Assembly: GCA_018970725.1 (NCBI GenBank)
Contig: JAGWVU010000001.1
Coordinates: 1-64,000, forward strand
DNA length: 64,000 nt
Source of the DNA: Verrucomicrobiota bacterium
Lineage (GTDB): Bacteria; Verrucomicrobiota; Verrucomicrobiia; Verrucomicrobiales; DEV007
Direction of reading: 5' to 3'
The notes under the pieces are model-generated. The model saw nothing but the letters and a program-made list of their open reading frames with translations. It was not told the origin of the DNA and ran no database searches. Numbering within the stretch: the first letter of the stretch is position 1; the number at the start of each line of letters is the position of its first letter. Positions 10,622-43,137 of this stretch are shown here, piece by piece. The translations under genes were made by a program, and so were the position numbers.

Positions 10622-13600
10622 ATGCCGAGTCTAAAAGCTGTGACCCCTGTTTTTTCAACTTCCACTGCGACGCTGTGGCGGGCCTGTGCCGCGCTCCTCG
10701 TCCTGGCGTGGGCGGTTGGCCGGGTTTACGCCCAAGATGCGGATGGGGATTTGCTGTTGGATGGAGTGGATCCGAAGCCGCTGGATGCCTTTAATGGCGG
10801 GTGGCAATATTTGCCGGGAGCGGGCGGAACCGGACCGCTTTCTCGTCATGAGGGGGACGGTTGCCAAGCTTTGAACCGCTTCATGGTCTTTGGGGGAAGG
10901 GAAACGGCGTTGGTAGAGACGTATGATCCCGAGGCCAACTTGTGGAAGAAATCGGGCACGGCACCATTAGCCTTTCACCACGTTCAAGGTGTGGTCGTGG
11001 GCGGACTGGTCTATGTGATCGGTGCGTTTTCCGGATCGTATCCAGATGAGGTGCCTGTCCCGGACGTCTACATTCACGATCCGTCGAGGGGAACGTGGAC
11101 CAAAGGGCCGGCAATCCCGGTCGATCGCCGACGGGGGGCCACCGCGGGTGCGGCGTATGGAGGAAAGATTTATCTTGCCGGAGGAAACACGAAGGGGCAT
11201 CGGGCCGGTTGGGTGGCTTGGTTCGACGAGTTTGATCCGGTCAGCGGCAGTTGGCGACGCCTCCCGGATGCTCCGCGGCCCCGTGACCATCATCGGGCAG
11301 TGGTGGCGGGTGATCGGTTGTTTCTCGTGAGCGGGCGGCGTACCAGTTTTGGCGACACTGGCGGCGTGCGGGGAAACACCGTTCCCGAGGTGGATGTCTA
11401 TGATTTCACGAGCGGCGTGTGGAGCCAGTTGCCCGATCCGATTCCGACGCCCCGCGCGGGCTGTGCGCTGATGGTGCATGGGCGGGATGTGGTGGTGGCC
11501 GGAGGGGAAGCGGAAGGCGGCGCGGTGGCGAAGGTGGAAGCGCTCGATCTGGAAACCGGGGACTGGCGGTCCTTTCCGGATCTGAAGCAGGCGCGCAACG
11601 GCCCGGTTGGGTTCAGTATCGGCAACCGGATTTTCGTGTCCGGAGGGCAGAATCCGGAGAACGCGAGCCAGGAGGTTCTGTTGGTTCCTCCGCGCCCGGT
11701 AGCCCCGACGCCATTTGTGATCAGCGGCAGCCCGCCGAACGTGATCCTGAGCCGGGTGAAGTCGGTGAACTGCGGGGGGCGCGGTGCGGGGAGCTTCGTG
11801 GGGGACGCGGGCTTTTCAGGCGGGGTGAGCGAGGAGACGACGATGGCGGTCGCCGGATCGGAGACCGCACCCGAGGCGGTGTTCAAGACGCGGCGCACTG
11901 GAGAGTGTGTTTACGAGGTGGAAGGTCTGGTGCCGTTGGCGCTCCACCGTCTGGACCTCAATTTTGCGGAGCTCGATTCTCCTCAAGGAACATTCGCGGT
12001 TTGGGTAAACGGAGAACCCGTCCTGCAAGATTTCGACGTGGTCCGGGAGGCGGCGGGGGTTCGCCGGGGCGTGACCAGATCTTTCACGTTGCGAACCGGA
12101 GCGGACGGCAGGATGCGGCTGGAACTCCGGGCGGGTGCCGGGGAACCGTTTCTCAATGGATGGACCCTCTTCCGCGCCACATACCCAGCGGGTGCGGCAG
12201 CTTCCTCCAGTTTGGCGCGACCCAACGATGTGCTTGCGAAGGTGGGAGATCCGGCATCCTTCGGTGCTCTGGTGAACGGAAGGGCCCCGGCCCGGTATCA
12301 ATGGAAGCGGAATGGGGAAACCCTCAAAGGTGCGACCGCGCCGGTGTTGAAGCTGGGCGCGGTGGGAATGACGCACGCCGGTGAATACGATGTGACCGCC
12401 GATGGGAAAATCTCGAGCGCACGGGCGAAGTTGGTTGTGGTGGGCCGCCCGGTCTATTCATCGGTGGTGGTGCGCGGTCAAACCACCACCTTGCGGATTC
12501 CGTTTGCGGGTGCGGGAGCCTCTTTCCAGTGGTTCAAGGACGGTGCCGCGCTCACGGATAGCCAGCTTCGACGTGGCAGTCGATCCGCATTGCTGGAAAT
12601 CCGAGGGTTCGCGGCCGCCGATTGCGGCACCTATTCGTGCGAGGTTCGTGCTTTTGGCGACACGGAGGTTTTCGATGGGTGCAAGTTGCGATTGATGGAG
12701 ATCCCGGTAGTCACCACGCCGCCGCCGCGCGCTGGAATCATCGGGGCCATCCGGTGGCAAATCGCGGCGAGCGAGGGATGGACGAAGTTTTTGGTGAAGG
12801 GCCTGCCGGAGGGATTGCGCTATGATGCGAAGCAGCGTGTCGTCTACGGAACCCCGGTCCGGGCGGGGAACTATGCGATCTTGATCACGCCCAGCAATCC
12901 AGCGGGCATTGGTCCGGTGCAAAGGTATCTCCTTTGCGCGGAGCTGCCGGACCCGGCTTTCCGGGGGAACTGGGTGGGATTGTCGGATCGTTCTGCGGCC
13001 ATCAATGGTCTGCTTGGGGGGGGGCTGCGGCTCACGGTAGGTTCCACCGGGCTTGTGACCGGCGTGTTTCGCAACGGCGGCCCCTCTTATCGGTTCTCCG
13101 GCCGGCTGGCGGGAGTGCCGGGCGGCGATGCCTCGTTCCGCACGGTGATCGACCGTGGACCTTCGCTGCCTCTGCTTCTCCACCTGACGTTTCCCAAGGG
13201 TGGCGACACCATCACCGGGAAGGTGACCATGGGCGGGAACGAGGCACGAATCACGGCGAGACGAGGTGCCGTGCCCGCCCCCGGCGTCACGGGTTCCGTC
13301 GAATCATTGCAATGCGTGTTCCGATTGGCCGACGACACCTTGGCGGGAAATCCGGCGGTGCCCCAGGGAACGGGATGGATGCGAATCAGTCGATCCGTCG
13401 GAACATCGTCGATCACACTCTCAGGAACCGGGCGACTTGCCGACGGGACCGATATCACGTTTTCGGTCGAAGAGGGCGTAGGCGGGGATTTTCCGATTTT
13501 CATGGTCTACCCGGCATTCAATGGGAGTCTCTCCGGCTGGGGGCGGGTGTCGCAAGGATTTGCTCCGTGGCGGGAGTTCGCAGGAAGCTTCCAATGGCGG

Positions 13601-14056
13601 AAGCTTCGTCCTGCCGGCAGTCTGGATTCGAGCTACCGGGCGGGTTTCAATGTTTGGCTCAACGGAGAAGGGGAATCCCGGGCGCCCCGGTCGCCGGACC
13701 TGAGCTGGCCAGACGTGATCGATCTCTCGGGGAACGCGGAAGTCGTCTTTGCGGATGGAGGATTGACGTGGAGTCAGGAGGCGGAGTTGAACCAAACATT
13801 CAGCCTCGCACCGAACGGGGAGGGGCGGTTTCCGGGCGGTCCACTCAGCCCGGCATGGCTCTCGATGCGCGTCGACGCGGCCCGGGGCACGTTCTCGGGG
13901 AATGTCCGACTCAAGGAAGGGTTGGTGATCCGGAATTTCGGCTATGAGGGGATCCTGATCAACGGAATCGGTGAGGGCTTCTTCAACCTGCGCCAGGCGC
14001 CGCTGACAGGTCCGGCACCGGTATGGTCCGGGGGAGTGCGGATTCTGCCTTACTGA
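10622..14056 (+). CDS. Secreted Kelch-malectin-Ig multidomain protein
   Basis: A 1144-residue exported protein. A signal peptide ending about VYAQ is followed by a calcium-type DADGDLLLDGVDP loop. Residues about 60-360 are a Kelch beta-propeller, with repeats of the type AGG/SGR...V..YD..T..W. Next is a malectin-like sugar-binding domain (about 375-515, NCGG...GWTLFRA). Two Ig-like domains come next (about 530-605 and 610-690, including GTYSCEV), then a He_PIG-type putative Ig domain and a long repetitive beta-rich C-terminal region. No PEP-CTERM or membrane anchor is seen. It most likely binds extracellular glycans or cells. It is monocistronic and divergent from the CPBP-SDR pair. Confidence 0.72.
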   Translation: MPSLKAVTPVFSTSTATLWRACAALLVLAWAVGRVYAQDADGDLLLDGVDPKPLDAFNGGWQYLPGAGGTGPLSRHEGDGCQALNRFMVFGGRETALVETYDPEANLWKKSGTAPLAFHHVQGVVVGGLVYVIGAFSGSYPDEVPVPDVYIHDPSRGTWTKGPAIPVDRRRGATAGAAYGGKIYLAGGNTKGHRAGWVAWFDEFDPVSGSWRRLPDAPRPRDHHRAVVAGDRLFLVSGRRTSFGDTGGVRGNTVPEVDVYDFTSGVWSQLPDPIPTPRAGCALMVHGRDVVVAGGEAEGGAVAKVEALDLETGDWRSFPDLKQARNGPVGFSIGNRIFVSGGQNPENASQEVLLVPPRPVAPTPFVISGSPPNVILSRVKSVNCGGRGAGSFVGDAGFSGGVSEETTMAVAGSETAPEAVFKTRRTGECVYEVEGLVPLALHRLDLNFAELDSPQGTFAVWVNGEPVLQDFDVVREAAGVRRGVTRSFTLRTGADGRMRLELRAGAGEPFLNGWTLFRATYPAGAAASSSLARPNDVLAKVGDPASFGALVNGRAPARYQWKRNGETLKGATAPVLKLGAVGMTHAGEYDVTADGKISSARAKLVVVGRPVYSSVVVRGQTTTLRIPFAGAGASFQWFKDGAALTDSQLRRGSRSALLEIRGFAAADCGTYSCEVRAFGDTEVFDGCKLRLMEIPVVTTPPPRAGIIGAIRWQIAASEGWTKFLVKGLPEGLRYDAKQRVVYGTPVRAGNYAILITPSNPAGIGPVQRYLLCAELPDPAFRGNWVGLSDRSAAINGLLGGGLRLTVGSTGLVTGVFRNGGPSYRFSGRLAGVPGGDASFRTVIDRGPSLPLLLHLTFPKGGDTITGKVTMGGNEARITARRGAVPAPGVTGSVESLQCVFRLADDTLAGNPAVPQGTGWMRISRSVGTSSITLSGTGRLADGTDITFSVEEGVGGDFPIFMVYPAFNGSLSGWGRVSQGFAPWREFAGSFQWRKLRPAGSLDSSYRAGFNVWLNGEGESRAPRSPDLSWPDVIDLSGNAEVVFADGGLTWSQEAELNQTFSLAPNGEGRFPGGPLSPAWLSMRVDAARGTFSGNVRLKEGLVIRNFGYEGILINGIGEGFFNLRQAPLTGPAPVWSGGVRILPY

Positions 14057-35481: not shown

Positions 35482-36921
35482 TCACTTCCTCACGGGGAGG
35501 CGGTATCGGTGGACGGTGGATCCATTGGGCTCCGCCGACCTTGTGACACCCGGCAGGGAAGCGCGGATGAGTTCCACCGTGCAATGATCGGGTTCGACGC
35601 CGACCCTCACATGCCCCGGGCTGCCATGGATCACCCCGGTGTATTGATAGTCCGCGGCGCTGCGCGTGCCGCCTCCGGGATGTCCCGGTTGAGGCACCTC
35701 CTGATAGATGATTCCGTCGAGCTCCTCCATGGCATAGAGATGATCGTGGCCATGAAAGACGATGCTGACTTGATGTTTCACGAGCAATCCGTGGATGGGC
35801 AGGTCCCAACCGGGGCGATGGTCCTTGAAGCCGTCAGTCCCGTCCGCGTTCCTGCCTCCCCATTCCATGTAGGGGGCCGGGGTGATTCCACCGCGGGCAT
35901 CCTTGCCCAGACCGCCCACCAGATGATGGATGAAGATGAATTTGAAGGGGGACCGGCTTTGCGACAACGTCGTGGTCAACCAGCGGTATTGGGTCTCGCC
36001 TAGGGTCATCGCCCAGTTGTCCTGACCGCTCCGTTGCGTGGTTGGCCAGAAGGGATCGAGAACGACAAAGAGGGCGCCGCCCCACTGCCAGGCATAATAG
36101 TCCTGAGGCAGGCCTGCGCCCGGGAGGGGATGGATGTTGCCTGTGTAGATCGTGCCCTCGGCGGGTTCCGGGTTGGCAAAGTATTTTTTGCGCATCGCCA
36201 GGGACCAGAGAGGCATGCTGTCCGGTTGCCCGGTGAGTCTCGCGGCGGTTTCACCATCATGGTTTCCCAAGGTCAGAAAGATGGGCACGCTATGGCCGAT
36301 CCGGCCGAGATGATAACGCTGCGCTTTATATTGGCTTTCCGCCCTTTGATAAAACGGACCGAACTTGTCGACCATGAAAGTGTCGCCGAGATCGATGAGG
36401 AAGTCCGGCTGATCCGCCAGCATGTTTGCCAGGGTCCGCTGATATACCCGCACATCCGTGCTCGTATCGAGATGCGAGTCCGCCTGAACCACGAAGCGAA
36501 ACGGGGCGCCGGCCTTGCGGCAGGTCTGGAAGGACCGGACCTCATCGCTCTCGAAATCGGTGGCTCCGGGAAATCGATAGCTGAAGCGGTAATGATACCG
36601 GCTGTCCGGCTCAAGGGACAGCAAGGGAACGAGCAAGGGCTCGCCGGCGCGAAGCGGGAAAACCGGGGAGGAATGATTGAGCGCATCCGGTTGAAGCCCA
36701 TAAGTAAGTTTTCCCTCGAGCTGTTCCCAAGCGAGAACGCTCACCGTGATCCGGTCCGGCCCGGGCTGGCAGAGGATCAGGTTGAAAAGATACTCCGGGA
36801 CAATGGCCGGTTCCACCCCGGCTCCGCCACCGGAGGTCTTGGGAGGCTTTGGACCGGCCGATACGCAGAGGAGCGCCAAGGTCCCCAAAAGGCAGGCGGA
36901 AATGGTGGCAGGAGTCTTCAC
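35482..36921 (-). CDS. Secreted metallophosphoesterase with N-terminal Fn3-like domain
   Basis: A 479-residue exported protein. A signal peptide and short Gly/Pro linker are followed by a purple-acid-phosphatase-type N-terminal beta-sandwich (about 45-135, SVLAWEQLEGKLTYG and YHYRFSY). The calcineurin-like domain then holds D148-SH, DLGD (about 177-180), GNHD (219-222), the IHHL segment and GHDHLY. Together these ligate two metals. The ATG overlaps the sulfatase stop (ATGA), so it is the last gene of the YHYH-sulfatase-phosphatase operon. The substrate is unknown; phosphate esters released by, or linked to, sulfated glycans are plausible. Confidence 0.88.
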   Translation of the reverse strand: MKTPATISACLLGTLALLCVSAGPKPPKTSGGGAGVEPAIVPEYLFNLILCQPGPDRITVSVLAWEQLEGKLTYGLQPDALNHSSPVFPLRAGEPLLVPLLSLEPDSRYHYRFSYRFPGATDFESDEVRSFQTCRKAGAPFRFVVQADSHLDTSTDVRVYQRTLANMLADQPDFLIDLGDTFMVDKFGPFYQRAESQYKAQRYHLGRIGHSVPIFLTLGNHDGETAARLTGQPDSMPLWSLAMRKKYFANPEPAEGTIYTGNIHPLPGAGLPQDYYAWQWGGALFVVLDPFWPTTQRSGQDNWAMTLGETQYRWLTTTLSQSRSPFKFIFIHHLVGGLGKDARGGITPAPYMEWGGRNADGTDGFKDHRPGWDLPIHGLLVKHQVSIVFHGHDHLYAMEELDGIIYQEVPQPGHPGGGTRSAADYQYTGVIHGSPGHVRVGVEPDHCTVELIRASLPGVTRSAEPNGSTVHRYRLPVRK

Positions 36922-38300
36922 GGACGCGGCTTGGGTTTGCCTTTGTTGCGCCCCCCTTTCCGGGCGGGCTCACGGGCCGGATCAAAGTTTGGATTGGGCG
37001 AGGGCATCGCGGCATCGACGTCACGGAGATAGGTAGCGAGGCGCCCCCTCAGGTCGGTGACGATCTCAGGCCTGGTTGGGGCGAGATCCTTGCGCTCCCC
37101 CAGATCCGTGGCGAGATCGTAAAGGCGATCCTCGCCCGTCTCATAAAAATGGAGAAGTTTGTGATTCCCCACCCGGATCGCGGAATGCGGGGTGTCCCCT
37201 TGATAGTGAGGGAAATGAAAGACCAACTCCCCGGTCGGGCGGCGGAAGCCATCGGGATTTCCGTGCAGAAGGCTGGAGATATCGGTTCCATCCAGCTGAG
37301 GCGGCAGGGAAGCGGTGACTCCGGCCAACTGGCAAAAAGTGGGAAAGAGATCATAGGCGAGCACCGGGACGTGTGACCATGAACCCGCCGGAATCCCTGG
37401 GCCGCGCACGATGAAGGGAACCCGGATCCCCCCCTCGGAGACCCCGCCCTTTCCGGCGCTCAACGGCCGGATTCCCCCCCGGCCGCCACCGCCGGCACCA
37501 TTGTCGGATAGATAGACAATGTAGGTGTGATCCGCGAGTTTGAGGCGCTCCACGGCATCGAGCACCTGACCCACACCCGTGTCAAGATTCTCCGTGATGG
37601 CAGCAACGTCGACATCCTGATGCATCCGTCCCGGCGGCTGCTTCTCATAAAACGCGCGGGTCAGTTTCAGGGCATTTTGCGGAAGGTGCAGGGGATACCA
37701 GGAAAGCTGCAGATAAAAGGGAGTCCCTGAGGCGGCTTGCCTGGAGAGAAAAGCCTCCGCCCGCGAGGCCATGCCAAAGACATCGTCAGGGTTGGGATCC
37801 ACGAAAGGATCCGCGTCCCGGTTCCCGGTATCGCCATCGCTCACGTCATACCCATGGGCCTCCGGTCCGCCGCCGCCCAGATGCCATTTGCCCAAATGCG
37901 CGGTGGCATAGCCCGCCCCCTTGAGCATTTCCGCCACGGTGACTTCCTCACGGCGGATGTCCTTGCGGGACTCCGCTTCGATGAGCCTGTGGCCAGTCTC
38001 CGGCGGGGCGGCTTTGGTCCAGCGAAGGCGGGCCGGGCTTTTGCCGGTCTGGAGGCTGATGCGGGTCGGGGAACAGACGGGCGCGGGTGCGTATCCGTTG
38101 CTGAAGCGGATGCCTTGTGAGGCGAACCGTTCGAGGTTCGGAGTGCGGAAAAAATCGCTCTTGGAATTGGGCACGTCGGGATGCATTTCCACGGAAAGAC
38201 CGGTCCAATCCTGGTCATCGGAAAGCATCACGATGAAATTGGGCCGGTCCGCGCCGTAGACCGGAAGCAGCAGGAAGAGGAATAGGAATAATGACTTCAT
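36918..38300 (-). CDS. Secreted FGly-dependent sulfatase
   Basis: A 460-residue sulfatase with a signal peptide (MKSLFLFLFLLLPVYGA). NFIVMLSDDQDW gives the metal-binding Asp pair, C76-S-P-T-R80 is the FGly motif with Pro at position 3, and GKWHLGGGGPEAHGYD, SWYPLHLPQ and VYLSDNGAGG follow. The closing 30 residues are basic (RKGGRNKGKPKPRP), unusual and possibly glycan- or surface-binding. It starts 6 bp after the YHYH fusion stop and overlaps the phosphatase start by 4 bp, so the three are one operon. Confidence 0.9.
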   Translation of the reverse strand: MKSLFLFLFLLLPVYGADRPNFIVMLSDDQDWTGLSVEMHPDVPNSKSDFFRTPNLERFASQGIRFSNGYAPAPVCSPTRISLQTGKSPARLRWTKAAPPETGHRLIEAESRKDIRREEVTVAEMLKGAGYATAHLGKWHLGGGGPEAHGYDVSDGDTGNRDADPFVDPNPDDVFGMASRAEAFLSRQAASGTPFYLQLSWYPLHLPQNALKLTRAFYEKQPPGRMHQDVDVAAITENLDTGVGQVLDAVERLKLADHTYIVYLSDNGAGGGGRGGIRPLSAGKGGVSEGGIRVPFIVRGPGIPAGSWSHVPVLAYDLFPTFCQLAGVTASLPPQLDGTDISSLLHGNPDGFRRPTGELVFHFPHYQGDTPHSAIRVGNHKLLHFYETGEDRLYDLATDLGERKDLAPTRPEIVTDLRGRLATYLRDVDAAMPSPNPNFDPAREPARKGGRNKGKPKPRP

Positions 38301-38306
38301 AATCTC

Positions 38307-40865
38307 TCAGGGAAGGGAGAGATGGGTGACATCCAGATCGGGCTTGGTATTCCAGCGGGGTGTCCAACCCGGCTTCTCGACGCGCTTGCGGAAGATCACG
38401 GTATTGTCGAGCGCCAGGTCCTCGCTCCAGATGAACTTCGCGCCGGCGAAGTCATGGTCAAAGTAGGGCTGTTTCGGGTCGACTTCCTCCGTGGTGAACT
38501 CCTTTGCTCCGGGCCACGCGGTGTCGTCGAAGTCGGGGGACCACCAGTTCCCGGGAAGAGGCTCGATCGCCACCTTGGGATTCGTAGTGTCCCCGCCTTC
38601 GGGACCGCGGAAAAACGACTTCGCCTTCCAGCTGGCGTCGGTGACGGTGCCGTCGGCGAATTTCAGCACGAAGCCTCCATCTCCGATGCTGTTGCCGTAT
38701 TCCATGCCGGTCTTCGGGTCGGCGTTGTCCTTGGCGAGGACCGCGATGGTCATCGGATATTCCGGCAGGAAGTCGACGCTGACCACATTGTGCGGGGTGA
38801 ATTGAATGGGATCGACGGCGACCAGCCTCCCGTTGACATAGAGAAGAAACCAATTGTCCGCATAGACATTGAGTTTCACTGTGTCATCGAGCGAGGGTTT
38901 GACGAGTCCGTCCTTCGGCTTGGTCGGTCCGGGCGGCTTTCTTCCGGATTCGCCGGGTGCGGAAGACCCGCTGGCGTGAATCATCTGGAGAGAACTGCTG
39001 GCGAGGATTTTTCCTTCCATCGCTGCCAGCAGGAGGTCCCGGTCCACTTGTTCGGCCGGCTCCTTGATTTGGACGGGCGCGGCCAAAGCATAAAGCGTGA
39101 TGGTATAGGTTTTGTCGCCGGGACCCTGGGAATGTGGGGGCTCGTAGCCGGTCTGGCGCTTGAAGTTGCCGCCTGTCTTACCGATTCCGGTGGCGGCTTC
39201 CGGCAGCCCGGTCAGACTGGCGGGCAGATCATAGAGCGTCCAATACCACTTGATTTGCCCATCTTTGGCGACGTGATCCATGATCAGGGCGAAGGCCTTT
39301 GTCCCGGGGGGCGGGTTCGACCAGGTCAACGGGGGCGAGATCCCGCGTCCGTCTCCGGTAAATTCCACGGGCATTCTGCCGCCGTTCTCGATCCGGGGAC
39401 TCGTGAGGAGGAACCTGCCATCACTGACTGGCCCACGTCCGGTGGGGGCCGGAGGATCTGGTGGCGCGGTGCGCTGGGTTTCGTCGGGATCGAGCTTGCC
39501 GTTTCCATTGAGGTCAAGCGCCTGAAAGGTTTCCCTGGCCTTGGCCATCGCCTGCGGGAGGCTCGAGAAGCCGGACCGACCTCCCTCAAATTCTCGTTTG
39601 GCCTGGGCGGCGAACTCCTGAGCCGAGACGAAGCCGTCGGCGTTCCGATCGGCCGCCGGTTTGGGGGGAGCCTGCGCGCCGTCGGCCGGACGCGGTGGGG
39701 GCGGTGAGGGACGCGGCGGAGGACCATCCCGCATATCGCCGCCACGACCGCCCTTGCCCCGGCCCTCTTTGCCTCCGCGTGGCTCGCCGGGAGCGCCGCC
39801 GCCACCGGGGCGCCGTTGATAGACCTCTTTCGTCACGCCATCGCGTCCGTTGTCGAATTCAAAGGGATAGGTGCCGTCAGGTTCAATGCGGTAGCGGATG
39901 AACCGGGTCTCGCCGTTGAGTGTGTAGGATAGTTCGCAGGCGTTGATCCCGGTTCTGGCGAAGCCGGTGATCTCCGCACCGCGCAGAGCTTGCAAGGCTT
40001 CGCGGACTGGCGTGGCCCGCGGTTGGGGATCGACTTGTTCCTGAGCCTCGATCACCTCTCCGTGGAAGCCACCGATCACGTAGGGATATTGGTTGGAGGC
40101 ATGGTAATGGTAACCGCGTTTCGGGTCGTCGTGACCATGGCAGGCATCGAGGCCGGTAACCGCCGATCCATCCGGTTCGGTGAGCCCGTGGACGGGATAG
40201 CCATCGAGGGCGAAGGCGATGGGCTGCTCCTTGCCGGCCGTGGCCTGGAGGTGGAGCGGCGCGATATGATAATGGTAGTCGTCCGCCCGGCCGCAGTGCC
40301 CGCCCCAATGATCCAGTTCCCCGATCTCGTAGGAGATCTCCCCGCGATTGTTTTGCGGGTTGAATATGGGGATCCCGTTGACGGCCAAAGCGATGGCCCC
40401 GCGAAGGAAGCGCCCCTTGATCATGGCCGGTTCCGTGGCGGGTTTGGGATGGAGGGGAATGCGCCAGGCATTGGACCCAGTGTAATCCTGGGGCAGGGGG
40501 ACCTGCTGTTGCCATGCGGTGATCCCGCTCATCATGGAATGGGCCGGCAACCCATTGGAACCGACAAAGAGGAAGGAATCATCCCAAGAGAGTTCGACCG
40601 CGGGCAGGAAAGCCTCAAAAGGCTTGGCCTGGGGCGGAGCCTGAGGGATGGCGCCGGCAGCTCCGTTGGCTGCGGTGACCACCGGAAGGGCGGGGCGGAC
40701 CCCGAGATCGCTCGCCGTGTGCCCGGCCCGCCATGATTCCTCAATATGGCGTCTCAGGGCTTCGCGGGAGTCCGGGTCGTCGGGATGCATGTCATGCCCG
40801 AATCCGGCCCCGGGTTGTCCCACTAGAATCCATGCCGCAAGGCCCGGCTGGAGGAAGCGTTTCAT
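38307..40865 (-). CDS. Secreted YHYH/EF-hand/PEBP fusion protein
   Basis: An 852-residue exported protein. A signal peptide (MKRFLQPGLAAWILVGQPGAGFG) leads to a YHYH domain (about 80-350) with GHCGRADDYHYH (189-200) and GYHYH (251-255), rich in His and probably metal-binding. A Gly/Pro/Arg linker follows, then two EF-hand-like calcium loops (DRNADGFVSAQEF near 406 and DLNGNGKLDPDE near 451). A PEBP/YbhB-type domain comes next (484-634, FLLTSPRIENGGRMPVEF...). A C-terminal beta-sandwich (655-852, NWFLLYVNGRLVAVD) completes the protein. The ATG at 40865 fixes the signal peptide. It heads the sulfatase-phosphatase operon and is divergent from a CusRS-like system across a copper-box-like palindrome. 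Confidence 0.82.
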   Translation of the reverse strand: MKRFLQPGLAAWILVGQPGAGFGHDMHPDDPDSREALRRHIEESWRAGHTASDLGVRPALPVVTAANGAAGAIPQAPPQAKPFEAFLPAVELSWDDSFLFVGSNGLPAHSMMSGITAWQQQVPLPQDYTGSNAWRIPLHPKPATEPAMIKGRFLRGAIALAVNGIPIFNPQNNRGEISYEIGELDHWGGHCGRADDYHYHIAPLHLQATAGKEQPIAFALDGYPVHGLTEPDGSAVTGLDACHGHDDPKRGYHYHASNQYPYVIGGFHGEVIEAQEQVDPQPRATPVREALQALRGAEITGFARTGINACELSYTLNGETRFIRYRIEPDGTYPFEFDNGRDGVTKEVYQRRPGGGGAPGEPRGGKEGRGKGGRGGDMRDGPPPRPSPPPPRPADGAQAPPKPAADRNADGFVSAQEFAAQAKREFEGGRSGFSSLPQAMAKARETFQALDLNGNGKLDPDETQRTAPPDPPAPTGRGPVSDGRFLLTSPRIENGGRMPVEFTGDGRGISPPLTWSNPPPGTKAFALIMDHVAKDGQIKWYWTLYDLPASLTGLPEAATGIGKTGGNFKRQTGYEPPHSQGPGDKTYTITLYALAAPVQIKEPAEQVDRDLLLAAMEGKILASSSLQMIHASGSSAPGESGRKPPGPTKPKDGLVKPSLDDTVKLNVYADNWFLLYVNGRLVAVDPIQFTPHNVVSVDFLPEYPMTIAVLAKDNADPKTGMEYGNSIGDGGFVLKFADGTVTDASWKAKSFFRGPEGGDTTNPKVAIEPLPGNWWSPDFDDTAWPGAKEFTTEEVDPKQPYFDHDFAGAKFIWSEDLALDNTVIFRKRVEKPGWTPRWNTKPDLDVTHLSLP

Positions 40866-40888: not shown

Positions 40889-40928
40889 ATGACAAACACG
40901 GGCGCGGACCGATGACAAAATCGTCATC
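40889..40928 (+). promoter_or_regulatory. CusR/CopR-box-like palindrome and extra half-site
   Basis: ATGACAAAATCGTCAT at 40912-40927 has the layout of the CusR/CopR copper box (ATGACAA-NN-TTGTCAT) with one mismatch. An additional half-site ATGACAAA occurs at 40889-40896, 23 bp upstream. Both lie in the 113-bp gap between the YHYH operon and the response-regulator gene, so a bound regulator could control either or both directions. Confidence 0.7.
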
Positions 40929-40978: not shown

Positions 40979-41659
40979 GTGAAGATTCTCCTCGTCGAGG
41001 ACGACCGCAAGATCGCCGGGTTTGTGGCCAAGGCTCTGGAGGAGCACGGGTTTGTGGTGGATGTCTGCCGAACCGGGACGGAAGGACTGGAGATGGCTTT
41101 GAACGGCTCCTTTGAAGCGATCCTTCTCGATATCATGATCCCCGGGCCGGACGGGTTGAGCATTCTCCGGAGGCTTCGGGAGCAGGGCAACAACGTCCCC
41201 GTGCTGTTGCTCACCGCCCGGAATTCTCCCCATGAGCGGGTCGAAGGTCTCAATCTCGGTGCGGACGATTACCTTTCCAAGCCCTTTTACATCGATGAGT
41301 TGATCGCCCGGGTCCACGCGTTGCTGCGGCGTTCGTCGGACCGGGGCTCCAGCGTGCTGCACGTTGGCGATCTCACGGTGAACTTGCTAACGCGGGAAGT
41401 TAGTCGAGGCGGGCGGGTGATCGAGCTTTCGGCACGGGAATTCGCCCTTTTGACCTGTCTCATGCATGCACCGGGCCGCGTCTTCACCCGGACCCAACTC
41501 TGCGAGCGGGTCTGGAATTACCATCATGATCCGGGCACCAACCTGGTGGATGTCTACATTCAGCGGGTCCGGCGAAAAATTGGCGATGACCCCACGCAGC
41601 CCTTGATCGAGACTCTGCGTGGCGTCGGCTATCGTTTCCGCAAGGAGGGCACGGTTTGA
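40979..41659 (+). CDS. OmpR-family response regulator, CusR/CopR type
   Basis: A 226-residue response regulator. The receiver has ILLVEDDRKIAGFV (acidic pocket), D51 in LLDIMIPGPDG as phosphorylation site, TARNSPHERVEGL, and Lys in YLSKPF. The C-terminal winged helix binds DNA (SAREFALLTCLMHAPGRVFTRTQL). Its close relatives are CusR/CopR/CzcR heavy-metal regulators, and a copper-box-like palindrome lies upstream. GTG at 40979 is the start by family similarity; a TTG at 40943 is the upstream alternative. The ribosome site directly abuts this GTG, so the start needs checking. Its stop overlaps the kinase TTG start (TTGA). Confidence 0.88.
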   Translation: MKILLVEDDRKIAGFVAKALEEHGFVVDVCRTGTEGLEMALNGSFEAILLDIMIPGPDGLSILRRLREQGNNVPVLLLTARNSPHERVEGLNLGADDYLSKPFYIDELIARVHALLRRSSDRGSSVLHVGDLTVNLLTREVSRGGRVIELSAREFALLTCLMHAPGRVFTRTQLCERVWNYHHDPGTNLVDVYIQRVRRKIGDDPTQPLIETLRGVGYRFRKEGTV

Positions 41660-43137
41660 AAGGGGCCAGTTTCCGGCTAAAACTCACCCTTGGTTCCGCC
41701 GCGTTGACCTGCGGTCTGCTGGTCCTGTGCGGTTGGGTCGCTTGGAAGGTGAATTACCGGATCCAAATGGAGCGTCTCGATCGGGAGGTGCGGGGGCTGG
41801 GGAGCGCAAACCTCGACCGTGTCTTTGGACGGGATCACTGGGAGCGGTTTGAAAAGGCGCTGCGCTTCATCGGCGGGGATGACCACAACGGGTATCTCGT
41901 TCTCGTCCGCGATGAGCAAGGCCGGGAAGTTTACCGCTCCCCGCAGTGGCCGGTCGATTTGGATCCGGCCCTTTTTCCCGCTCCCGGACCGGTCGACATT
42001 TCCACCGAGCCGGAGCTGGATCCGGTGCACCGGTTGCACCGCGCCCCGCCGCGTCCCGGTGAGCCCTTGTCCCGGGAGAATCCACCGTTGCCGCGGCTTC
42101 AGCCGGTGTTTCTCACGGGCCGTGGTGGCGGGCAGGCCTGGCGGATCGGGGTTATGGGAAACCCGTCGGCCACCCTCGTTATTGCAGCGAACTTGAAGGA
42201 ATTGGAGTCCGGCATGAGCGACCTCGGGAAAGCGTTTTGGCTCGGACTGCCTCTCGCTCTTCTATTGGTGGCCGGAGGCAGCTGGATCATGGCGGGGCAG
42301 GCGCTCCGCCCCGTTGCGTTGCTCACCTCCGCCGTGGAGGCGATGAACGCCCGTCGGCTGGACGAGCGGGTGGCGGGGAGTGGTTACGACCGGGAATTCC
42401 AGCGTTTGGTCGAGGTCTTCAATGCCATGTTGGGCAGGCTGGAGGCAAGTTTTCAACAGGCGGGACGCTTTACCGCGGACGCGGCTCATGAGCTGCGGAC
42501 CCCTCTGACCGTTTTGCAGGGGGAACTGGAACAGGCCCTGCAACAGGCCCCGCCAACCTCCGGGACCGAGATCGCCCGGGAAGTGGTCCTGCTCGAGGAG
42601 GTGGAGCATCTCAAGGCCATCGTCGAAAAGCTGCTGATGCTGGCGCAGGCGGACGCGGGCCATCTCCCGGTGGATCGCCAACCCGTGGATTTGAGCCAAC
42701 TCGTCGCGGAGGTGGCGGATGACGCGGCGATCCTTGCGGGCGGCAAAGTGGAGATCGAGCGCCAGATCGAGCCGGATGTGGTCCTCCCAGTGGACGAGGT
42801 TCTGGCGCATCAACTCCTCCAAAATCTGGCGACCAACGCGATCCGATACAACCGCTGCGGAGGCATGGTGCGGTTCTCCCTCAGAAAACAGGAGGGAGCG
42901 GTCGTCCTGACCGTCGCGAATACAGGTCCCGGGATTCCCGCCGGGGATTGGGACCGGGTGTTCGAGAGGTTCTATCGGGCCGATCCCGCGCGGACGAGAA
43001 CCCGGGGTGAAGGGGCTGGACTCGGTTTGGCACTGTCCCGGGAAATTGCCCGGGCTCACGGGGGCGACCTGCGGCTCGTCCCGGCCCAAGGCGAATGGAC
43101 GGTGTTTGAGTTGCGGTTTCCAGCGATAGCCGCGTAA
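41656..43137 (+). CDS. Heavy-metal-type sensor histidine kinase, CusS-like
   Basis: A 493-residue inner-membrane kinase. TM1 (about 10-34) precedes a periplasmic sensor (about 35-190) with His residues and a Pro-rich segment. TM2 (about 193-213) and a HAMP linker lead to HisKA with H278 in FTADAAHELRTPLTVLQGEL. The HATPase region has NAIRYNR (N box), NTGPGIP, the F box and EGAGLGLALSREIARAHGG. A TTG start at 41656 overlaps the regulator stop, with AAGGAGGG 7 bp before. Architecture and operon fit CusS/CopS/CzcS; the ligand is a metal or periplasmic stress, with copper favoured by the upstream box. Confidence 0.88.
   Translation: MKGASFRLKLTLGSAALTCGLLVLCGWVAWKVNYRIQMERLDREVRGLGSANLDRVFGRDHWERFEKALRFIGGDDHNGYLVLVRDEQGREVYRSPQWPVDLDPALFPAPGPVDISTEPELDPVHRLHRAPPRPGEPLSRENPPLPRLQPVFLTGRGGGQAWRIGVMGNPSATLVIAANLKELESGMSDLGKAFWLGLPLALLLVAGGSWIMAGQALRPVALLTSAVEAMNARRLDERVAGSGYDREFQRLVEVFNAMLGRLEASFQQAGRFTADAAHELRTPLTVLQGELEQALQQAPPTSGTEIAREVVLLEEVEHLKAIVEKLLMLAQADAGHLPVDRQPVDLSQLVAEVADDAAILAGGKVEIERQIEPDVVLPVDEVLAHQLLQNLATNAIRYNRCGGMVRFSLRKQEGAVVLTVANTGPGIPAGDWDRVFERFYRADPARTRTRGEGAGLGLALSREIARAHGGDLRLVPAQGEWTVFELRFPAIAA

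Follow-up and report, generated by a model that had tools for sequence, protein, structure and literature searches.

A candidate surface module of Verrucomicrobiota that links a YHYH fusion protein to a sulfatase and a phosphatase

Proteins with a YHYH domain are known from phages, diatoms, and bacteria, and the domain has been predicted to be a metal-dependent hydrolase with a His triad and an Asp (PMC7824862); in the literature searched, no experimental function was found for any of them. Other described systems come close to single parts of the locus presented here. AMOR_S1_16A is a kappa-carrageenan 4-O-sulfatase in which Trp79 and His149 are hallmarks of subfamily S1_16 (PMC11760155), the rhamnosidase SaRha78A contains a calcium-dependent rhamnose-binding module, CBM67 (PMC4690510), and the Legionella adhesin Lcl, after which the Lcl_C domain is named, binds sulfated glycosaminoglycans (PMC11162425). 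As for control, the E. coli systems CusRS/cusCFBA and HprRS have divergent two-component genes that share one intergenic box with the target operon (PMC8249747, PMC10920338). The subject of this work is a three-gene operon of a Verrucomicrobiota bacterium (assembly GCA_018970725.1), found in positions 1 to 64,000 of contig JAGWVU010000001.1; this whole stretch of 64,000 nucleotides is called the window. The operon encodes P1, a fusion of YHYH, EF-hands, a PEBP domain, and a C-terminal domain (CTD); P2, a sulfatase; and P3, a phosphatase.

The operon can be read as a modular, secreted, two-component-controlled system for binding a sulfated glycan and stripping it of its ester groups, and we give this reading a probability of about 50%. 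The first-pass annotation had suggested substrate capture plus hydrolysis, directed at sulfated and phosphorylated surface polymers or at lipids. The polymer part of that suggestion has been strengthened by the fold of the CTD, the nearness of the sulfatase to S1_16, the Lcl_C domains of a giant version of the system, the shared operator, and repeated fusion, and the lipid part has been weakened. Its gene architecture largely stands: open reading frame (ORF) and Pfam analysis, with a structural model for the beta-sandwich, place all the named domains in one protein of 852 amino acids (aa), and the sulfatase gene follows after 6 bp. The phosphatase gene does overlap the sulfatase gene by 4 bp, but these four letters are GTGA, not ATGA, and the start codon is GTG. 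Three elements are additional: a divergent CusRS-like pair at 40979-43137, an operator, and, at another place in the genome, a giant version of the system in a single protein. To judge from sequence comparison, the parts of this cassette very probably work together; their co-inheritance, repeated fusion, and shared operator are well supported, and the view that the cassette is one functional module, and one regulon in the CusR-like lineages, is strongly supported. Three routes, largely separate from one another, thus connect YHYH with named enzymes: its neighbourhood, its fusions, and the shared operator.

The first route is the neighbourhood. Homologues occur in 21 of 57 relatives, and a scan of species genomes with the YHYH alignment gave 80 loci, nearly all from Verrucomicrobiota; two are labelled Planctomycetota, and a few labels are perhaps mis-binned. 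Among 388 sampled Verrucomicrobiota genomes, a YHYH match was obtained in 39 and a CTD match in 27, many of them weak. The loci were selected by YHYH similarity, many come from metagenome assemblies, and the gene maps rely on our own gene calls, with approximate starts, and on hidden Markov models (HMMs) built from the surveyed loci. Among genes at most three places from YHYH there is, relative to farther positions on the same contigs, an excess of sulfatase (17.2% vs 3.7%, p 5e-10), phosphatase (7.2 vs 1.1%, p 3e-5), CTD (3.3 vs 0%, p 4e-4), and response regulator (6.0 vs 0.6%, p 2e-5), these p-values overstating independence because the loci are related; the kinase is also enriched. At the 51 loci with three genes on each side, the sulfatase is present in 33, the CTD in 29, the response regulator in 19, and the phosphatase, a less constant partner, in 16. 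The gene order is permuted, with the phosphatase ahead of the sulfatase in L108 and L109, for example, and the CTD is either fused or a separate gene. Could such an association be a chance neighbourhood, functionally meaningless in a phylum where sulfatases abound? The source genome alone has ∼55 sulfatase loci (60 matches, some of them fragments), yet same-contig enrichment and repeated fusion argue otherwise, and the operator shared between unlinked contigs contradicts the idea, which is hardly credible.

The second route is fusion. Neither a fusion restricted to this strain nor YHYH and PEBP lying apart in relatives, the findings that would have told against the first-pass annotation, is the rule: among 75 complete non-giant YHYH genes in the surveyed loci, 63 are fused to PEBP, and 28 of these also to the CTD. 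Separate YHYH and PEBP genes do occur, outside Verrucomicrobiota. A tree of 95 YHYH domains, made by a quick search and with long branches meeting in the giant group, needs 11 changes between fused and unfused CTD, at least 5 of them forced by well-supported branches. In the same tree the YHYH domains of the giants are one well-supported clade, and two further YHYH-sulfatase fusions, L047|5 (1,016 aa) and L110|2 (1,066 aa), lie elsewhere, so that such fusions sit on three separate branches. The giant of the source genome (L055) is encoded on another contig than the window; it has 5,346 aa, no internal stop, and the following domains: YHYH, two Lcl_C (140 bits), sulfatase, Ig-like, phosphatase with a purple-acid-type N-terminal domain, kelch, and Calx-beta. 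The order of YHYH, sulfatase, and phosphatase is that of the window operon. The giant of genome G027 has an additional CTD-like segment and a formylglycine-generating-enzyme-type domain. Lcl_C-type segments are found outside the giants as well: in L063 and L102 they are encoded by genes of their own, no more than three genes away from YHYH.

The third route is the operator, a palindrome that lies upstream of P1. Its exact form, ATGACRANNTYGTCAT, occurs once in the 4.9 Mb of the source genome, and when one mismatch is allowed the extra sites are all inside ORFs. The window sequence, ATGACAAAATCGTCAT, agrees at 13 of 14 positions with what we take to be the E. coli CusR box; a congener agrees at all 14 and an Opitutaceae locus at 12. 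Twelve loci have CusR-like regulators, with 54-89% identity to that of the window. The pattern ATKAC-N6-GTMAT has 10 matches in the 263 kb of these loci, whereas the other loci, 435 kb in total, have 2. Each of the 10 stands 17-84 bp ahead of a cassette gene start or of the regulator divergent to it, and one of the other 2 precedes a YHYH-PEBP gene. The pattern was derived partly from the very loci counted, and therefore the strongest support comes from sites found afterwards. One of these is 61 bp upstream of the giant gene, which in the source genome lies on a different contig from the window; the distance in the congener is 46 bp, and the giant gene thus looks, by this shared site, to be under the same DNA switch as the window operon. 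In genome G018, a sulfatase gene on a contig unlinked to the cassette has an identical copy of the box 83 bp ahead of it, and this sulfatase scores 627 bits with the cassette HMM. In each of four relatives, the matches listed for the whole genome include the strict form ATTAC-N6-GTAAT a single time, at the cassette, against 0.6-1.9 predicted by composition per 6 Mb. The looser pattern has 16 sites in the source genome; of ten examined, six are inside ORFs and four are not, namely those at the window operon, the giant gene, C42:82048, and C43:33509. So few sites outside ORFs among those examined point to a regulon that is probably small. A called ORF of 182 aa begins 23 bp after the operator-like ATGACAAAGCTGTAAT at G000:C42:82048-82063 and is a possible further member.

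What signal does this system sense? By sequence, the window pair is nearest to CusR/CusS and misses the curated cut-offs, the response regulator scoring 235 bits with TIGR01387 (cut-off 279) and the kinase 242 with TIGR01386 (cut-off 293). Other cassettes have regulators of two further lineages, read by eye as CpxR- and PmrA-like, and therefore the control layer has been swapped; the cassette of a cultured relative, Verrucomicrobia bacterium IMCC26134 (L109), likewise has a regulator of a different type. As a pointer to Cu2+ binding, the CusRS-like regulator is suggestive only. One may nonetheless picture an envelope or metal stress module, in which Cu, Ag, or an oxidant is perceived by CusRS-like sensing, the cell remodels its own sulfated or phosphorylated exopolymer, and YHYH binds metal, with no feeding on foreign glycans. 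The CusR-like regulator and the CusR-box-like operator fit this picture, as do the regulators of the other cassettes, which resemble envelope sensors as well, the lack of recurrent catabolic genes near the cassettes, and the ability of Verrucomicrobiota to make sulfated exopolymers (PMC7356697). Against it are the scores of regulator and kinase below the curated Cus cut-offs, the three regulator lineages, which make one common metal signal unlikely, and a cassette without a metal transporter. On balance we regard it as somewhat unlikely.

Turning to the substrate, the reading as a glycan-binding and ester-removing module draws on the CTD. Pfam gives no match for this beta-sandwich; its AlphaFold2 model has a predicted local distance difference test (pLDDT) score of 90.6 (the YHYH and CTD models were built on 61 and 31 sequences, respectively). 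The top structural matches are the GH78 enzyme SaRha78A (3w5n, residues 166-299, Z 10.4), a Pleurotus ostreatus lectin (Z 9.9), both over ∼120 residues, and a second GH78 enzyme (Z 9.0); the three rank above the next group, in keeping with a CBM67 jelly-roll fold. At the sequence level, the similarity to GH78 2okx is weak (E 0.14 and 0.46), there is no significant match to CBM67, and phages gave no CTD match. Within ADN(W/Y)F the CTD has an invariant Asp-Asn pair, which would fall on residues 179-180 of SaRha78A if the start of the alignment is ungapped, presumably the sugar-binding pair of that protein. Public annotation calls the CTD homologues L197 9487-10134 and L204 7959-8600 "PEBP family protein", probably a naming error, the L197 copy being without a Pfam match. 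Another homologue, L198 7611-8594, is on a conjugative Vibrio plasmid beside transfer genes and has no annotated YHYH neighbour.

The other domains of P1 were judged, like all Pfam matches here, against curated cut-offs. YHYH matches PF14240 with 49.4 bits (cut-off 25) and is rich in His and Asp, in the motifs GGHCG, DDYHYH, HGH, and GYHYH, whose His and Asp are invariant or near-invariant among 61 aligned sequences. The only clear structural matches of its model (pLDDT 89.6) are two viral proteins, one of them named YHYH; no fold was assigned from PDB, since the best match (Z 7.3) spans 59 residues that make up a common beta motif. In a subgroup (L046, L047, L048, and L049) the second HYH motif is YRYV, so that this motif is dispensable or the metal site has changed. 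An apparent multicopper oxidase (by reading) adjoins YHYH genes in L102 (gene 4, 705 aa) and at three other loci, a cluster spanning four loci. EF-hand_5 scores 36.9 bits (cut-off 25.9); both of its loops, DRNADGFVSAQE and DLNGNGKLDPDE, are canonical. The PEBP match to PF01161 is clear as well (66.8 bits, cut-off 24), but the pocket His of canonical bacterial members (WxHW), seen in the aligned E. coli YbhB, is a Tyr (KWYW-type) in P1 and in all motifs listed among 78 family domains. Because of this replacement, and with no other pointer to lipids, phospholipid capture was dropped as the leading idea, and only a presumptive role can be given to the altered pocket.

P2 matches PF00884 with 130.4 bits (cut-off 25) and has the formylglycine (FGly) motif CSPTR at residue 76, with metal ligands and catalytic Lys and His intact (CSPTR, DDQ, SDN, GKG, and KWH). 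The nearest solved structure is 9fo1, the S1_16 enzyme AMOR_S1_16A (285 bits over 428 aligned residues). Related variants deserve a mention. In sulfatase-like cassette proteins of L063, L069, L071, L075, L078, L079, L080, L083, L087, L089, and L108, HCKCECSR (HPKCECSR in L089) replaces CxPxR and KWQW replaces KWH, and these features are conserved across the group. The sulfatase domains of the giants (L055 900-16940; L056; L057; L061; L068; L072; L110) have CSVTR instead of CxPxR, and L089 has CSITR. Tandem sulfatase-sulfatase fusions adjoin the cassettes at L039 12792-16478 and L042 3989-6790.

P3 matches PF00149 with 39.7 bits (cut-off 21.5), and its metal motifs DxH, GD, GNHD, HH, and GHDH are intact, as in calcineurin-like enzymes. 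A purple acid phosphatase was rejected, since the Tyr ligand of GDxxY is absent (GDTFMVD) and DxH stands in place of DxG; a single-sequence search of PDB returned no homologue. Do the two esterases simply scavenge, freeing inorganic sulfate and phosphate from organic esters, with the other domains merely tethering them to particles? They do share one operon, flanked in the window by genes for porin O/P and PPK2, and one giant polypeptide; on the other side, the porin is kept in the closest relative only and PPK2 not even there, for which reason neither was retained as a module member, the regulators are Cus-, Cpx-, or Pmr-like instead of PhoB or sulfur regulators, and the phosphatase is often absent from the loci. 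We regard scavenging as unlikely.

Several points weigh against a module for sulfated glycans. By an alignment read by eye, Trp79 and His149 of AMOR_S1_16A are Ala and Asn in P2; the assignment to S1_16 was therefore lowered and substrate specificity is not transferable. No recurrent glycoside hydrolase or transporter was seen near the cassettes when recurrent neighbours were read by eye, so that sugar use is not evident and a full catabolic locus is disfavoured. A classical polysaccharide utilisation locus was likewise rejected: neither SusC/SusD nor a carbohydrate-active enzyme appeared among the Pfam-scanned operon genes and nearest neighbours, or among recurrent neighbours by eye. YHYH-PEBP stands alone at 9 of the 51 loci, a run of four genes on a Loktanella plasmid encodes YHYH, PEBP, a CTD homologue, and a second YHYH, without a sulfatase, and another Rhodobacterales plasmid has a CTD homologue beside YHYH, again without one. 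The esterases therefore look like add-ons to something older, and the simplest reading would be an older core of YHYH, CTD, and PEBP, joined by the esterases in Verrucomicrobiota. Finally, no experiment on this system was found.

How, then, might the parts act? P1, P2, and P3 have signal-peptide-like N termini (judged by eye) and would be secreted to the surface, where the substrate is most likely a sulfated surface polymer or glycan. As for catalytic roles, YHYH chemistry, and the sensor signal, we infer the following. The CTD, together with the Lcl_C domains in the giant, would hold the sulfated glycan, from which P2 would strip sulfate and P3 phosphate; YHYH would supply a metal site, as a further hydrolase or a binding module, and the EF-hands would bind Ca2+. 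The divergent envelope two-component system would control the operon via ATKAC-N6-GTMAT, sensing the polymer or the envelope state that the polymer causes. A bolder version, in which YHYH is an unrecognised metal-dependent enzyme whose substrates are sulfated or phosphorylated sugars, and in which the giant is a complete single-polypeptide glycan processor (bind, desulfate, dephosphorylate, and cleave), seems unlikely. Should the module for sulfated glycans be confirmed, an uncharted route of sulfated-glycan processing would be added in a phylum prominent for that process, and the function of YHYH already becomes a question for the bench, for which a substrate class and a promoter are predicted and an assay is at hand. 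The features of the operon and its surroundings are collected in the table; the window also encodes, at 10622-14056, a protein of 1,144 aa with kelch and Ig domains, both of which the giant has too.

Table. Positions in the window of the operon, its predicted domains, and the divergent control genes
Feature	Position	Strand	Basis
P1, YHYH / EF-hand / PEBP / CTD fusion, 852 aa	38307..40865	-	ORF, Pfam
P2, S1-type sulfatase, 460 aa	36918..38300	-	ORF, Pfam PF00884
P3, calcineurin-like metallophosphatase, 479 aa	35482..36921	-	ORF, Pfam PF00149
YHYH domain of P1, residues 77-350	39816..40637	-	Pfam PF14240, AlphaFold2 pLDDT 89.6
Two EF-hand Ca2+ loops of P1, residues 406-417 and 451-462	39480..39650	-	Pfam
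PEBP domain of P1, residues 484-628, altered pocket (KWYW)	38982..39416	-	Pfam PF01161, motif, PDB match 3n08
CTD of P1, CBM67/lectin-like jelly roll, residues 641-848	38322..38945	-	AlphaFold2 model, structural matches
CusR-like OmpR-family response regulator, divergent from operon	40979..41659	+	Pfam, NCBIfam TIGR01387
CusS-like sensor histidine kinase	41656..43137	+	Pfam, NCBIfam TIGR01386
Operator ATGACAAAATCGTCAT, CusR-box-like palindrome, 47 bp upstream of P1 ATG	40912..40927	.	Exact-match search, kept in relatives

How does this locus compare with the systems described so far? With E. coli CusRS and HprRS it has in common a divergent two-component pair and a target operon that share an intergenic box, but the target is a set of predicted glycan esterases instead of an efflux pump, and the scores are under the Cus cut-offs. 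P2 aligns with AMOR_S1_16A in the FGly motif, the metal ligands, and the catalytic Lys and His; it differs at the positions of Trp79 and His149, and the contig of AMOR_S1_16A has glycoside hydrolases (PMC11760155), whereas the P1-P3 operon has none. The CTD has the fold of the Pleurotus lectin and of the CBM67 of SaRha78A; unlike the latter, it is a predicted sugar binder only and is attached to YHYH and PEBP, not to a glycosidase. The YHYH proteins of phage tails belong to the same Pfam family as the domain of P1, which also has its structural matches in viral proteins, but P1 is a cellular protein, and its operon also encodes a sulfatase and a phosphatase. Lcl_C is the sole part in common with the Legionella adhesin Lcl, and the giant, which has two copies, joins it to YHYH, a sulfatase, and a phosphatase in one polypeptide.

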